Origin: Planctomycetaceae bacterium
Lineage (GTDB): Bacteria > Planctomycetota > Planctomycetia > Pirellulales > Pirellulaceae
NCBI GenBank assembly: GCA_024225195.1
Contig: JAAEMV010000811.1
Span: 1-34,143 of the forward strand
Reading direction: 5' to 3'
Length of the DNA: 34,143 nt
The notes beneath the pieces are model-generated. The model saw only the letters and a program-made list of their open reading frames with translations, did not search any database and had not been told where the DNA came from. Below, piece after piece: positions 24,027 to 29,821 of the stretch; position 1 is the first letter of the stretch, and every line of letters starts with the position of its first letter. The position numbers were made by a program, and so were the translations under genes.

Positions 24027-24527
24027 ATGGAAGCAGTATTACAAAGCCTCATCGATTGGTGGCCATTCTGGCTCGGGTTGGCGATTCTCGCGGCCTTGAT
24101 CCTCTTGATGCAAATCTGGGCGCTTCCCCGAAACTTGCCCTACCTTGCCCGCGGTCAACTCGTAACCAAAAGCGAACTGAAATTCTACAAATCACTTTCA
24201 AAAGCAGTGCAGGACGATTTTCAAATATTCGCCATGGTTAGGATTGCCGACTTATTACGTGTCGAAAAAAATAACAAACACCGTCGCAAATGGCTCAACA
24301 AAATCCTGGCCAAACATATTGATTTTGTGCTGTGCGACCCGGGCACTCTCAAACCGTTGGTTTGTATTGAACTCGATGACATCTCACACCAGAGACCCGA
24401 GCGGATCGAAAGAGATAAATTCGTCAACCAGGCTTTTAAATCCGCCCAACTTCCGTTGCTTAGGATTCCAACGCAACCAGAATATCGGTCTCGGGAAATC
24501 CGTGAACTAATCGAAAACGTTCGTTAG
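24027..24527 (+). CDS. Membrane-anchored DUF2726 domain protein
   Basis: The 166-residue protein has one hydrophobic segment (about 12-32; FWLGLAILAALILLMQIW) near its N terminus. A cytoplasmic DUF2726-type domain follows (about 48-160). The domain shows the family features: a start like KSELKFYKSL, then IDFVLCDPGTLKPLVCIELDD (the Asp and the Glu-Leu-Asp resemble the active-site arrangement of PD-(D/E)XK nucleases), RDKFVNQAF and LPLLRIP. The role of DUF2726 proteins is not established; a nuclease-like activity is inference from fold similarity only. GGAG at 24012-24015 lies 11 bases before the ATG, slightly far. The Nudix gene follows after 187 bases. Confidence 0.8.
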   Translation: MEAVLQSLIDWWPFWLGLAILAALILLMQIWALPRNLPYLARGQLVTKSELKFYKSLSKAVQDDFQIFAMVRIADLLRVEKNNKHRRKWLNKILAKHIDFVLCDPGTLKPLVCIELDDISHQRPERIERDKFVNQAFKSAQLPLLRIPTQPEYRSREIRELIENVR

Positions 24528-24714: not shown

Positions 24715-25122
24715 ATGAGCGATTTTCCCAAACGTGCTGCTGTTGCCGTTATTGTTGATGGGCCTAAGTTTCTGACGATCCTCCGGTCACAGTCAGTGCG
24801 TGCACCGGGGCAAATTTGTTTTCCAGGCGGCGGAATTGAAGTGGCAGAATCGCCCCAAGCAGCCACCGTTCGGGAGATGCGTGAAGAACTCGGACTCGAT
24901 GTCACCGCCCAAAAAGAAATATGGAAGAGTGTATCACCCCGAGGTCTTGAAATTCACTGGTGGAAAACAGTAATTGAAGCTGGGCAAACAATCGTTCCGA
25001 ATCCTGACGAAGTCGAGTCCTTCAGTTGGCTGACGGCCAGAGAAATAGTGGCCTGCTCAAATTTACTAGAAAGCAACCGCTGCTTTTTCGAAGCCCTCGA
25101 GAACGGCGTATTTTCAATCTAG
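24715..25122 (+). CDS. Nudix hydrolase
   Basis: Nudix enzymes hydrolyse nucleoside diphosphates linked to other groups. This 135-residue protein is a single Nudix domain with a complete Nudix box at 39-61: Gly39, Glu45, then REMREELGL (53-61). This fits the GX5EX7REUXEEXGU pattern at every fixed place. The divalent metal would be bound by Glu54, Glu57 and Glu58. The substrate cannot be named: MutT-like cleaning of oxidised nucleotides and other sugar-nucleotide or coenzyme substrates are all possible. No signal peptide. No ribosome site is visible at the ATG. Confidence 0.92.
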   Translation: MSDFPKRAAVAVIVDGPKFLTILRSQSVRAPGQICFPGGGIEVAESPQAATVREMREELGLDVTAQKEIWKSVSPRGLEIHWWKTVIEAGQTIVPNPDEVESFSWLTAREIVACSNLLESNRCFFEALENGVFSI

Positions 25123-25677
25123 CGTCTCTCTTGCTCATTCGGTGCGGTAAACACGGCCTAAAAAGATGCTAGAGCTTCTCAGCGTAGAACTCAACCTATT
25201 TATCTTTGAATCAACGTGCCGGAACTGGTTCGCCAGTTCATTACAAAACAACCTTGCAGTGCTCGAACTGTTTGAGCTTCTTTATGGAAAGTGACGGCAG
25301 AAAGACAACCCTCGATGCTTGTTCAAAATAGATCACTCACTCTGTTAGCTTGAAGGGGCTTGAAGAAGATCCACAGAAAGAAGCTAACTAAGGTTTGAGA
25401 ATCACCATCAACTCAAAGACTAAAAGAGAAGAGAAAACGCCTAAAAGTACATCGCACACAAACGGAAGATTGACTTGGCCAGTGTCATTTCACGCTTTGC
25501 CACCAAAGAAAACGCTTTTGACCGAATTCTTGATCTGTCGGTTTGGGAATTGATGTCTGGACGTTTTCTTGTTGATTGAAACGGCTCAAGGAGTTTGGCT
25601 CTCCCCTGCTCCCAATTTCAATCAACCACTTTTCTTATACAGACCCAGCCTGCATTGGTTTCTTTCACAGGAAATAA
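25123..25677. other. Gene-free, inverted-repeat-rich stretch (candidate structured RNA)
   Basis: No convincing coding frame. Between 25222 and 25626 there are several strong inverted repeats: GAACTGG / CCAGTTC closed by a TTCG tetraloop (25222-25239); GCTCGAA / TTTGAGC (25261-25277) followed by TTCTTT; GTTAGCTT / AAGCTAAC (25344-25351 and 25381-25388); AAGAAAACG / CGTTTTCTT (25506-25514 and 25562-25570), immediately followed by GTTGATTGAAA / TTTCAATCAAC (25571-25581 and 25616-25626). The last two helices abut and could stack. I could not match the region to tmRNA, RNase P RNA, SRP RNA or a tRNA. The strand of any transcript is unknown. Confidence 0.45.
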
Positions 25678-25950
25678 GTCCTTCTAAAACTGGCAACAGA
25701 GTCTGAGGCAGATCGATTAAGCGTGACACCCGAACTACGAAAGTTAGCCTTCGATTCGCAATCGCTTTCCGACGATTCCGATGATAAGCAATGGGCCAAT
25801 GGACGCTTCAGAGGTTTTCCGATTAATTGCCGACCAGAGCAAACCGAAGCTCTCGAATGATTCAATTCACTGTTGGCAGAGGAGCGTGGCACCCGCGCAG
25901 GCAAAAGAAGCCATGAATTGGTCAAAATTTGGTGTCAATCGACTTTCTAG
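25678..25950 (+). pseudogene. Possible remnant of a coding region with an internal TGA
   Basis: One frame is open for 60 codons from 25678, is broken by a TGA at 25858-25860 and continues in the same frame for 29 codons to a TAG at 25948-25950. The translation looks protein-like on both sides of the stop: LATESEADRLSVTPELRK early, FRGFPINCRPEQTEALE before the stop and LLAEERGTRAGKRSHELVK after it. There is no ATG and no ribosome site; a stop (TAA) precedes it at 25675-25677. I do not recognise a family. It may be a decayed gene or a chance frame. Confidence 0.3.
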
Positions 25951-25963
25951 GCAGCATTTACGA

Positions 25964-25992
25964 TTGTAAAAGCCTGAATGAACCGATATAGT
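25964..25992 (+). promoter_or_regulatory. Probable promoter of rpsB
   Basis: TTGTAA (25964-25969), a spacer of 17 and TATAGT (25987-25992) match the sigma-70 pattern at four and five places. Transcription would start near 25999, giving a leader of about 127 bases before rpsB. The -35 lies just after the stop of the possible broken frame. Confidence 0.5.
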
Positions 25993-26005
25993 TTTCGTTC
26001 CTAGA

Positions 26006-26096
26006 GCGTGGAATTTGTCCACGCCTAACGTTTTCAACCCTTTTTGATCCCATCGGTGCTGCTCCTGCCATAAGGACAGTAAAGGCAATTTTTGCC
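26006..26096 (+). promoter_or_regulatory. Structured rpsB leader
   Basis: Two hairpins lie in the predicted leader: GCGTGGA / TCCACGC with a five-base loop (26006-26024) and GGCAA / TTGCC with a three-base loop (26084-26096). The first would be almost at the 5' end of the transcript. Ribosomal protein S2 controls its own operon through the mRNA leader in other bacteria, so a similar role is possible here but not shown. Confidence 0.35.
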
Positions 26097-26125
26097 GAGA
26101 AAACCGGTAGTGATGGAGTAAATTC

Positions 26126-26908
26126 ATGGCAAATGCGCTAGTTCAAGATCTTATCGACGCGGGTGTTCACTTCGGCCACAGAGCCAGTCGCTGGAACCCG
26201 AAAATGTCGCCGTATATTTACGGTCGCAAAAACCAAATCCACATCATGGACATTCGCGAGACGGTACGCGGGCTTTTGCGAGCCAAAAAGTACGTTTCCC
26301 AGGTTGCTAGTGGTGGAAGTCTCGTTTTGTTCGTTGGTACAAAGCGACAAGCCTCGGCCGCAGTTCAGCGTGAAGCCGAACGCTGTGGCATGCCTTACGT
26401 CAGCGAACGTTGGCTCGGTGGCGCGTTAACTAACTTCCGCACAATTCGCAGTCGAATGGGTCGACTCGAAGAACTCGAAGAAATTCGCGGCGGCGACAAA
26501 ATCGAAGGATACTCAAAGAAGGCTCAGTCGTCTTTGAATCGTGAGTTCCGAAAGATTCACCGCAACTTGAACGGAATTCGCACGATGAATCGCAAGCCGG
26601 AATGCTTGATCATCGTCGACCCGAACAAAGAAAAGAACGCAGTTCTTGAAGCTAAAAAGCTTGGAATCACGACCGTTTCTTTAATCGACACTAACTGCAA
26701 TCCTGATCTGATCGATTTGCCAATCCCCGGCAACGATGACGGTATTCGCTCAATTGAATTAATCATGAGCCACATGGCCGACGCGGTTCTTGCAGGTCGG
26801 AAAGCAATCGTTGCGAAAAACGAAGGCAAAGAATCTGGTGCCAAAGCCGACGCTGCCCCAAAAGCAGATGCTGTGCCGGACAAAGATGCCGAAGAAACTG
26901 CAGTTTAA
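26126..26908 (+). CDS. rpsB: 30S ribosomal protein S2
   Basis: S2 is a late-assembling protein of the small ribosomal subunit, needed for binding of S1. The 260-residue protein shows the full S2 pattern: [25 protein letters not shown] (start of the protein), [24 protein letters not shown], and [25 protein letters not shown]. The C-terminal 30 residues are an Ala/Lys/Asp-rich tail that varies in the family. GGAG (26115-26118) stands seven bases before the ATG. It is the first gene of the rpsB-tsf-pyrH-frr cluster. Confidence 0.98.
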
Positions 26909-28336: not shown

Positions 28337-29077
28337 ATGACGCAAACGGCAAAATACAAACGAATCATCTTGAAACTGTCAGGCGAGAGCTTCAGCCCCT
28401 CTGGAGAACGGGGGATTAGCATGGAAGAGGTTGTGCACATCTCGCAACAAATCAGCGAAGCACAACAGCTTGGGTGCCAGATTGCGGTCGTTATCGGCGG
28501 CGGCAACATCCTTCGAGGTAGCCAATTCAAAGCGAAAAATGAAGTCGTCCACGAAGCGACCGCACACTACATGGGCATGATGGCCACAATCATTAACGGC
28601 CTCGCCCTCCAGGATGCACTGGAATCCGTCGGCTGCCAGACGCGATTGATGAGCGCAATAAAGATGGACGGCGTTTGCGAGCCCTACATTCGCCGTCGAG
28701 CCCACCGGCATCTTGAGAAAGGACGAATTGTCATTTTAGGTGCAGGCACCGGAGGCCCTTTCGTAACCACTGACACCGCCGCTGCGTTGCGCAGCATGGA
28801 ACTCGAAGCAGACATCCTCATGAAAGCCACACGCGTTGATGGTGTCTACAGTGAGGATCCTGAAAAGAACCCCCACGCCGTACTTTACTCCGAACTTGAA
28901 TTCCAAACGTGCATTGAAAAGAATCTTCGCGTCATGGACTCCACTGCAATCTCTCATTGCATGGAGCACAACATGCCTTTGATGGTTTTTAACTTTCGCA
29001 AAGACGGAAACATCATCAAAGCGGTTCTTGGTGAAAAAGTCGGAACCATCGTCAGCAACAATCCAATTGCAGACTAA
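28337..29077 (+). CDS. pyrH: UMP kinase (uridylate kinase)
   Basis: PyrH phosphorylates UMP to UDP in pyrimidine nucleotide synthesis; the bacterial enzyme is hexameric and is controlled by GTP and UTP. The 246-residue protein belongs to the amino acid kinase family. It has [10 protein letters not shown] (start of the first strand and loop), [28 protein letters not shown], and [22 protein letters not shown] followed by VDGVYSEDP. The end [11 protein letters not shown] is typical. No Shine-Dalgarno site precedes the ATG. A TATATT at 28296-28301 could be a -10 box but has no good partner. Confidence 0.97.
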
Positions 29078-29260: not shown

Positions 29261-29821
29261 ATGCCTGCCGCCGCAATCATCGAAGATGCCGAACAGAGGA
29301 TGGATAAAGCAATTGAGGTTTTGAAAAAGAGCCTCAGTGGAATTCGCACCGGGCGAGCTAACCCTGGACTTGTCGATTCCCTCCGAGTAGATGTTTATGG
29401 ATCTCCCACGCCGATTAAGCAGGTGGCTCAAGTCGGTGCTCCCGAACCAACACAAATCGTCATTCGCCCCTACGACACCGGGATCATCAAAGAAATTGAA
29501 AAGGCAATTGTTGCCAGCGACCTTGGCTTCAATCCCCAAAACGACGGTCGCGTCGTCCGAATTAACATTCCGCCGCTCTCGACTGACGTGAGAAAAAAGA
29601 TGGTCAGTCGGATCAAAGAATTGACAGAAGAGGCGAAAATTTCAATTCGTAACGTCCGTCGTGACGGCAATAAAGCGGCTGACGTGGCCGAAAAGGATAA
29701 GACTCTTTCTGAAGACCAGAGAGATGACGTAAAGGATCAGGTTCAAGAACTGACCAAGAAGTTTGAAATTCAAGCTCAGGAGATTGCGAAAGCAAGAGAA
29801 TCCGAGGTCATGGAAGATTAA
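29261..29821 (+). CDS. frr: Ribosome recycling factor
   Basis: RRF splits the post-termination ribosome together with EF-G. The 186-residue protein has the standard length (about 185). It shows the family pattern throughout: LSGIRTGRANPGLVD, YGSPTPIKQVAQV, IVIRPYD, NDGRVVRINIPPLSTDVRKKM and ISIRNVRRDGNKAAD. It is a good match over its whole length. GGAG (29251-29254) is six bases before the ATG. It ends the cluster, with a terminator following. Confidence 0.98.
   Translation: MPAAAIIEDAEQRMDKAIEVLKKSLSGIRTGRANPGLVDSLRVDVYGSPTPIKQVAQVGAPEPTQIVIRPYDTGIIKEIEKAIVASDLGFNPQNDGRVVRINIPPLSTDVRKKMVSRIKELTEEAKISIRNVRRDGNKAADVAEKDKTLSEDQRDDVKDQVQELTKKFEIQAQEIAKARESEVMED

Follow-up and report, generated by a model that had tools for sequence, protein, structure and literature searches.

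Does the DNA between the Nudix gene and rpsB in this planctomycete encode a structured RNA, and if so, where exactly does that RNA lie? The window, i.e. the complete stretch of 34,143 nucleotides analysed here, harbors a Nudix gene (24715-25122, profile match to PF00293) and, 1003 bases further on and on the forward strand, rpsB for ribosomal protein S2 (26126-26908; PF00318, E 4.6e-88). Downstream of rpsB follow a long frame, which from its sequence we take to be of the tsf type, a pyrH-like gene (28337-29074, AA_kinase profile match) located 3' of that frame, and, 3' of the pyrH-like gene, frr (29261-29818, RRF profile match). Two genes upstream of rpsB a DUF2726 protein is encoded (24027-24527; PF10881, E 8.2e-32). 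The closest named relative by rpsB is the Mariniblastus MAG L077 (100% over 260 residues), and Mariniblastus is placed in the Pirellulaceae, Pirellulales, Planctomycetota. The initial annotation had proposed a structured RNA at 25222-25626, between the Nudix gene and rpsB. Our analysis points to a different location: we consider it probable that this flagged stretch is spacer and that an adjacent leader RNA lies between a predicted promoter and rpsB, with free S2 most likely repressing via a three-way junction.

The flagged stretch forms part of the spacer that separates the Nudix gene from the predicted rpsB promoter and is gene-free as described, with no open reading frame of at least 80 aa inside. 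Five inverted repeats had been reported; four perfect ones are indeed present, whereas the fifth candidate (25275-25286/25374-25385) is imperfect (92%). The perfect repeats comprise seven pairs closed by a TTCG loop (25222-25228/25233-25239, as annotated), eight pairs (25344-25351/25381-25388), nine pairs (25506-25514/25562-25570) and eleven pairs (25571-25581/25616-25626), and the nine- and eleven-pair stems do abut, with their junction at 25570/25571. Perfect arms with a loop of up to 60 bases were counted and compared with 1000 dinucleotide shuffles and 675 slices of the same window. The four repeats with arms of at least 7 are reached by 149 shuffles and 26 slices, the three with arms of at least 8 by 18 and 2, the two with arms of at least 9 by 9 and 9, and the longest arm of 11 by 12 and 21, respectively. 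To call such repeats unlikely by chance several times over is too strong, because this enrichment is mild and the repeats were picked post hoc from 34 kb.

Also, folding and database comparisons give the flagged stretch no distinction. Folding energy across 25200-25660 is not unusual relative to shuffled sequence (z -1.03 on the plus and -0.99 on the minus strand). No Rfam family reaches its gathering score in the window, a low-threshold search of 25100-26150 returned four matches far under their gathering scores, and neither a tRNA nor a tmRNA is found in the window. Searched against its own genome, the flagged stretch matches nothing except itself. A BLASTN search with 25100-26130 as query against 60 genomes, the window's own included, matched eight (again with its own), all from one genus. 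Among the 59 relatives the flagged stretch is covered in the sister genome G016 only, and a second genome, G018, matches its 5' edge at 66%. Identity to G016 amounts to 78.5% apart from gaps, with 125 gap positions; the eleven-pair stem is unchanged there with a longer loop, the TTCG hairpin retains seven of seven pairs (one as a wobble), and the nine- and eight-pair stems are broken (7/9 and 6/8 pairs kept). Two of the four perfect stems are thus broken when window and sister are compared. Measured from the Nudix match to rpsB, the distance in seven close relatives lies between 384 and 1146 bases (G016 1146, G017 1116, G007 708, G018 649, G019 447, G003 403, G022 384; in G003 and G022 the Nudix match breaks off before the end), versus 1003 in the window. 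As far as sequence comparison can tell, the flagged stretch changes as dispensable spacer does and looks like ordinary fast-changing intergenic DNA. We rejected it as a structured RNA on its fold z, its sparse relatives, the mild repeat enrichment and the broken stems. The wider idea, that an RNA new to science or restricted to the lineage precedes rpsB, finds no support in this interval and does find it some 400 bases downstream, between the predicted promoter and the start codon of rpsB.

In the six other BLASTN relatives the match is confined to the 205-320 bases that directly precede rpsB (82-89%), apart from the additional edge match of G018. This conserved block contains a sigma-70-like promoter pattern on the forward strand, TTGTAA and TATAGT separated by a 17-base spacer (25964-25992), which is the sole promoter-like site found in 25000-26200, a region where about one chance match is expected (0.8 per shuffle). 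For comparison a sample of 28 genomes from the same genus, that of Mariniblastus, was used, 25 of which have a readable rpsB upstream region (G004 and G011 lack an rpsB match, and in G010 rpsB lies at a contig end). The pattern TTGN3-N16..18-TANANT occurs once each in 24 of these 25 upstream regions, G005 being without it, versus 6.2% of 10000 shuffled 260-mers. Between the end of the flagged stretch and the predicted rpsB promoter lie 338 bases; being 5' of that promoter, the stretch is unlikely to be part of the rpsB leader.

A predicted leader RNA structure (type M) is located at about 26006-26118 on the forward strand, comprising a 5' hairpin and a three-way junction P1/P2/P3 that ends at the rpsB Shine-Dalgarno sequence. 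The 5' hairpin P0 (GCGTGGAATTTGTCCACGC, 26006-26024) sits near the predicted transcript 5' end; such a hairpin, differing in sequence, is predicted in 25 genus sequences (segment mean fold z -2.13, range -5.05 to -0.06). Between P0 and P1 runs an unpaired pyrimidine-rich stretch, TTTTCAACCCTTT (26025-26046), a possible S1 site, and TTTAACCCTTT-like stretches resembling it are seen in several genus leaders. The P1 5' strand (26047-26057) consists of ATC (26047-26049) and ATCGGT (26052-26057), and its 3' strand (26103-26114) of ACCGGT (26103-26108) and GAT (26112-26114), which adjoins the Shine-Dalgarno GGAG (26115-26118), recognised by sequence seven bases before the ATG. The P2 hairpin, CTG-C-TCCT[GCCATA]AGGA-CAG (26059-26079), has a genus-conserved apical part CCTGNNNNAAG with the consensus CCU-GNNNNA-AGG and a lower stem that covaries; the P3 hairpin (GGCAATTTTTGCC, 26084-26096) is variable. 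Folded as a single sequence, the window shifts the register of P1, in that CCATC pairs with GATGG and takes two Shine-Dalgarno bases.

The motif is found directly before rpsB in all 25 readable genus upstream regions, and its structure covaries as the structures of ribosomal protein leaders do, with P3 and the outer part of P1 as weak parts. The pattern YCTGNNNN..AAG occurs within 170 bases before rpsB in 25/25 genus versus 3/30 non-genus upstream regions, a contrast that is descriptive because the pattern was drawn from these same sequences. Positions 26047-26120 are identical in the sister genome G016, in which the flagged stretch reaches the 78.5% given above, and the core folds at a mean z of -2.22, with 22 of the 25 genus sequences below -1. 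Covariation was assessed by an alignment-free partner-swap test, in which the 5' segment of each genome was paired in turn with the 3' segment of the same genome and with those of the others, using 18 of the 25 genomes after seven near duplicates had been dropped. P1 duplexes average -10.9 kcal/mol with their own partner versus -8.2 when swapped (permutation sd 0.58), and the lower stem of P2 -3.7 versus -1.4 (permutation sd 0.42); 0 of 20000 permutations reached either value. In several genomes the own P1 partner is not the best one (rank 10 in G005, 11 in G009 and 8 in G015, out of 17). Alignment A3, which was fitted to the structure, has 26 rows, of which 24 are distinct and one is spurious; its paired cells amount to 76.7% versus 65.4% in shuffles and at most 46.4% when the structure is slid, and the covariation score is 0.325 versus 0.171 in shuffles. 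The 12 pairs changed on both sides do not exceed what shuffling gives, as 183 of 500 shuffles have at least this number, and the weak parts are P3 with 54% and the outermost P1 pairs with 56% of cells paired.

The distribution of the leader was examined with an RNA search model, R1, built on a first MAFFT alignment (A2) that misplaced the P1 3' strand, with the structure taken from the window row. In the window's genome R1 gives a single match (26037-26128). It matches 25/25 genus loci, by construction since the model was built from those 25 sequences, and 0/30 non-genus loci. Of 80 named loci eight are matched; two of these, L088 (E 1.1e-4) and L090 (E 0.009), are matched upstream of rpsB, lie outside the training set and share no 20-mer with any upstream region examined. 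The single-sequence folds of L088 and L090 lack the modelled P1; by eye, the complements TTTAG/CTAAA and CCACG/CGTGG are present. Under stricter filters, 23 of 241 family genomes have a match, namely G170 and, out of the 28 genus genomes, 22 with one match each, always at the rpsB position; in the remaining six genus genomes the match is weak, the locus sits at a contig end or rpsB itself gives no match. The G170 match (L178:1200-1280, E 0.0025) is probably due to chance, as the frame after it is un-S2-like by eye.

Other Pirellulales carry two further rpsB leader forms, A and F, one of them with a covarying pseudoknot. A rough pattern sorting of the 80 named loci gave 11 M, 9 F (some doubtful), 21 A and 39 unsorted, and three of the 11 M (L099, L108, L109) look like type F. 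Type A (L103:1876-2000 and 18 further loci) was analysed in the unfitted alignment A5, which holds 18 of the 21 sorted A loci (all except L112, L128 and L135) plus L149. It features a hairpin with a loop that forms a pseudoknot with GRCCG and, 3' of the pseudoknot and before the ribosome binding site, an ACGCCGG/CCGGUGU pairing. In these 19 loci, from which the tested structure was itself drawn, 91.5% of cells are paired versus 79.1% shuffled and at most 41.8% slid, the covariation score is 0.383 versus 0.154, and 58 cells are changed on both sides versus 19.4. The type A element GCCGGTGT recurs in 16S, in the segment that follows h37, in the four genus 16S genes examined (16S locus L180), possibly by mimicry or by chance. 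Type F (L102:847-896 and others), recognised by inspection and from the unfitted alignment A6 of ten loci, reads GCGA-AGG-hairpin-CCUGU-P3-AUCGC and occurs in Pirellulaceae including Rhodopirellula baltica (L109). Rfam searches of two sets of 18 other-Pirellulales loci found no RNA-leader match (none in one set, two tRNAs in the other), and up to E 10 one type F upstream region gave nothing but a 9.7-bit chance match. By inspection the AAGG and CCTG blocks of type F stand in the opposite order to those of the window's leader. A tentative and rather doubtful scenario would have the Pirellulales repeatedly replacing their S2 leader architecture, with M as CCUG-loop-AAGG, F as AAGG-hairpin-CCUG forming the core of its three-way junction, as if the binding site had been circularly permuted, and A pseudoknotted; the permutation idea is weakened by the hairpins of L083-L085, which by eye read CCTC-loop-AAGG.

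How does the window's leader relate to known systems? The E. coli rpsB leader t44 (RF00127) resembles it in being structured and immediately upstream of rpsB-tsf, and autorepression by S2 is known in E. coli (PMC10931766). The two differ in that the E. coli ribosome binding site is reported to lie outside the operator (PMC10931766), whereas P1 in the window closes at the Shine-Dalgarno. The t44 model does not reach its gathering score anywhere in the window, and in 25100-26150 it yields nothing even with E values up to 10 allowed; as positive control it matches the E. coli rpsB locus with 83.5 bits. Meyer et al. 2009 (PMC2704228) described an rpsB motif with a pseudoknot between J2-3 and a 3' extension after P1; this pseudoknot is not seen in the window's leader: inspection of the window showed J2-3 TAAA (26080-26083) and no TTTA in 26115-26128. 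Conversely, no counterpart of the window's P2 with CCTGNNNNAAG is described for that motif in the section consulted, and Planctomycetes are not named in the paper's main text. We regard the window's leader as distinct from t44 and claim membership neither in t44 nor in the PMC2704228 motif, because the t44 model gives no match and inspection of the window shows no J2-3 pseudoknot. The ribosomal leaders of Eckert and Weinberg 2020 (PMC7247131) are the same kind of element backed by the same sort of evidence; none of the 20 leaders in its table has S2 as ligand, and the string 'planctom' is absent from its main text. The Rhodopirellula-1 motif (PMC2864571) is presented as a candidate element, probably cis-regulatory, whose status as an RNA is graded ambiguous and whose taxa include Planctomycetes; it could be identical with one of the present leaders or a separate element. 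Among the papers searched, largely open-access main texts, none was found that describes an rpsB leader from planctomycetes.

Position, conservation and the covariation of P1 and P2 are shown by comparison among genomes; what we infer is transcription of rpsB-tsf from the predicted promoter, binding of S2 and translational repression. The leader is most likely an autogenous S2 leader controlling rpsB-tsf translation. In such a scenario the rpsB-tsf mRNA would begin at the predicted sigma-70-type promoter and would present, in this order, P0, the unpaired pyrimidine-rich stretch and the P1/P2/P3 junction; free S2 would bind the junction and stabilise P1, stabilised P1 would hinder ribosome binding at rpsB, and hindered initiation would lead to less S2 and less of the genes behind rpsB. 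With P1 closing right at the Shine-Dalgarno, any factor that makes the junction more stable should impede initiation at rpsB. S2 is the expected ligand because in E. coli it represses its own rpsB-tsf mRNA (PMC10931766, PMC2704228).

A real structured 5' UTR that binds something other than S2 (S1, EF-Ts or another ligand), or that enhances stability or translation without any ligand, is distinctly less probable. The position upstream of rpsB is the sole pointer to S2, the four genus 16S genes show no likeness of the leader to the S2-bound 16S helices, the stretch between P0 and P1 is pyrimidine-rich and unpaired, and S2 repression in E. coli is reported to need S1 as companion (PMC10931766). 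Mimicry of 16S was discarded as evidence, given that in these four 16S genes no CCTG-loop-AAGG hairpin occurs near the S2-contact helices and that the pattern match, AAGGGTTTGATCCTG, lies at the 16S 5' end. What speaks for S2 is that leaders of r-protein genes mostly bind a product of their own operon (PMC7247131).

Two further explanations are very improbable. Conservation before rpsB could reflect promoter or operator DNA only, with incidental pairing: the predicted promoter is strongly kept, and a palindrome, TTTACGATTGTAAA (25957-25970), a possible operator, overlaps its -35 and is kept in close relatives. P1 and P2, however, covary, and the promoter is 50-120 bases upstream of them. Equally improbable is that the flagged stretch itself encodes a small RNA, or that it belongs to the Nudix transcript as a structured 3' UTR. 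Its eleven-pair stem, albeit with a longer loop, and its TTCG hairpin persist in the sister genome, G018 holds a related hairpin with one mismatch, and a terminator-like site lies at 25261-25277; yet 1.6 such sites are expected by chance, the fold z is about -1, two stems are broken in the sister, other close relatives give no match and a pattern scan found no promoter-like site within the stretch. The autogenous S2 leader remains the reading we prefer.

The locus illustrates that hairpin-spotting by eye can settle on spacer while a conserved RNA adjoins. S2 leaders are established in proteobacteria, and how the E. coli one is recognised is still unclear (PMC10931766). A leader with a different fold in Planctomycetota, and with it two more forms from within the Pirellulales, would mean that one recognition problem has been solved independently several times. 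The forms M, A and F would show turnover of r-protein regulation, and, if the repeated-replacement scenario is true, the order would offer a natural set of RNAs, unrelated or rewired, that a single protein recognises.
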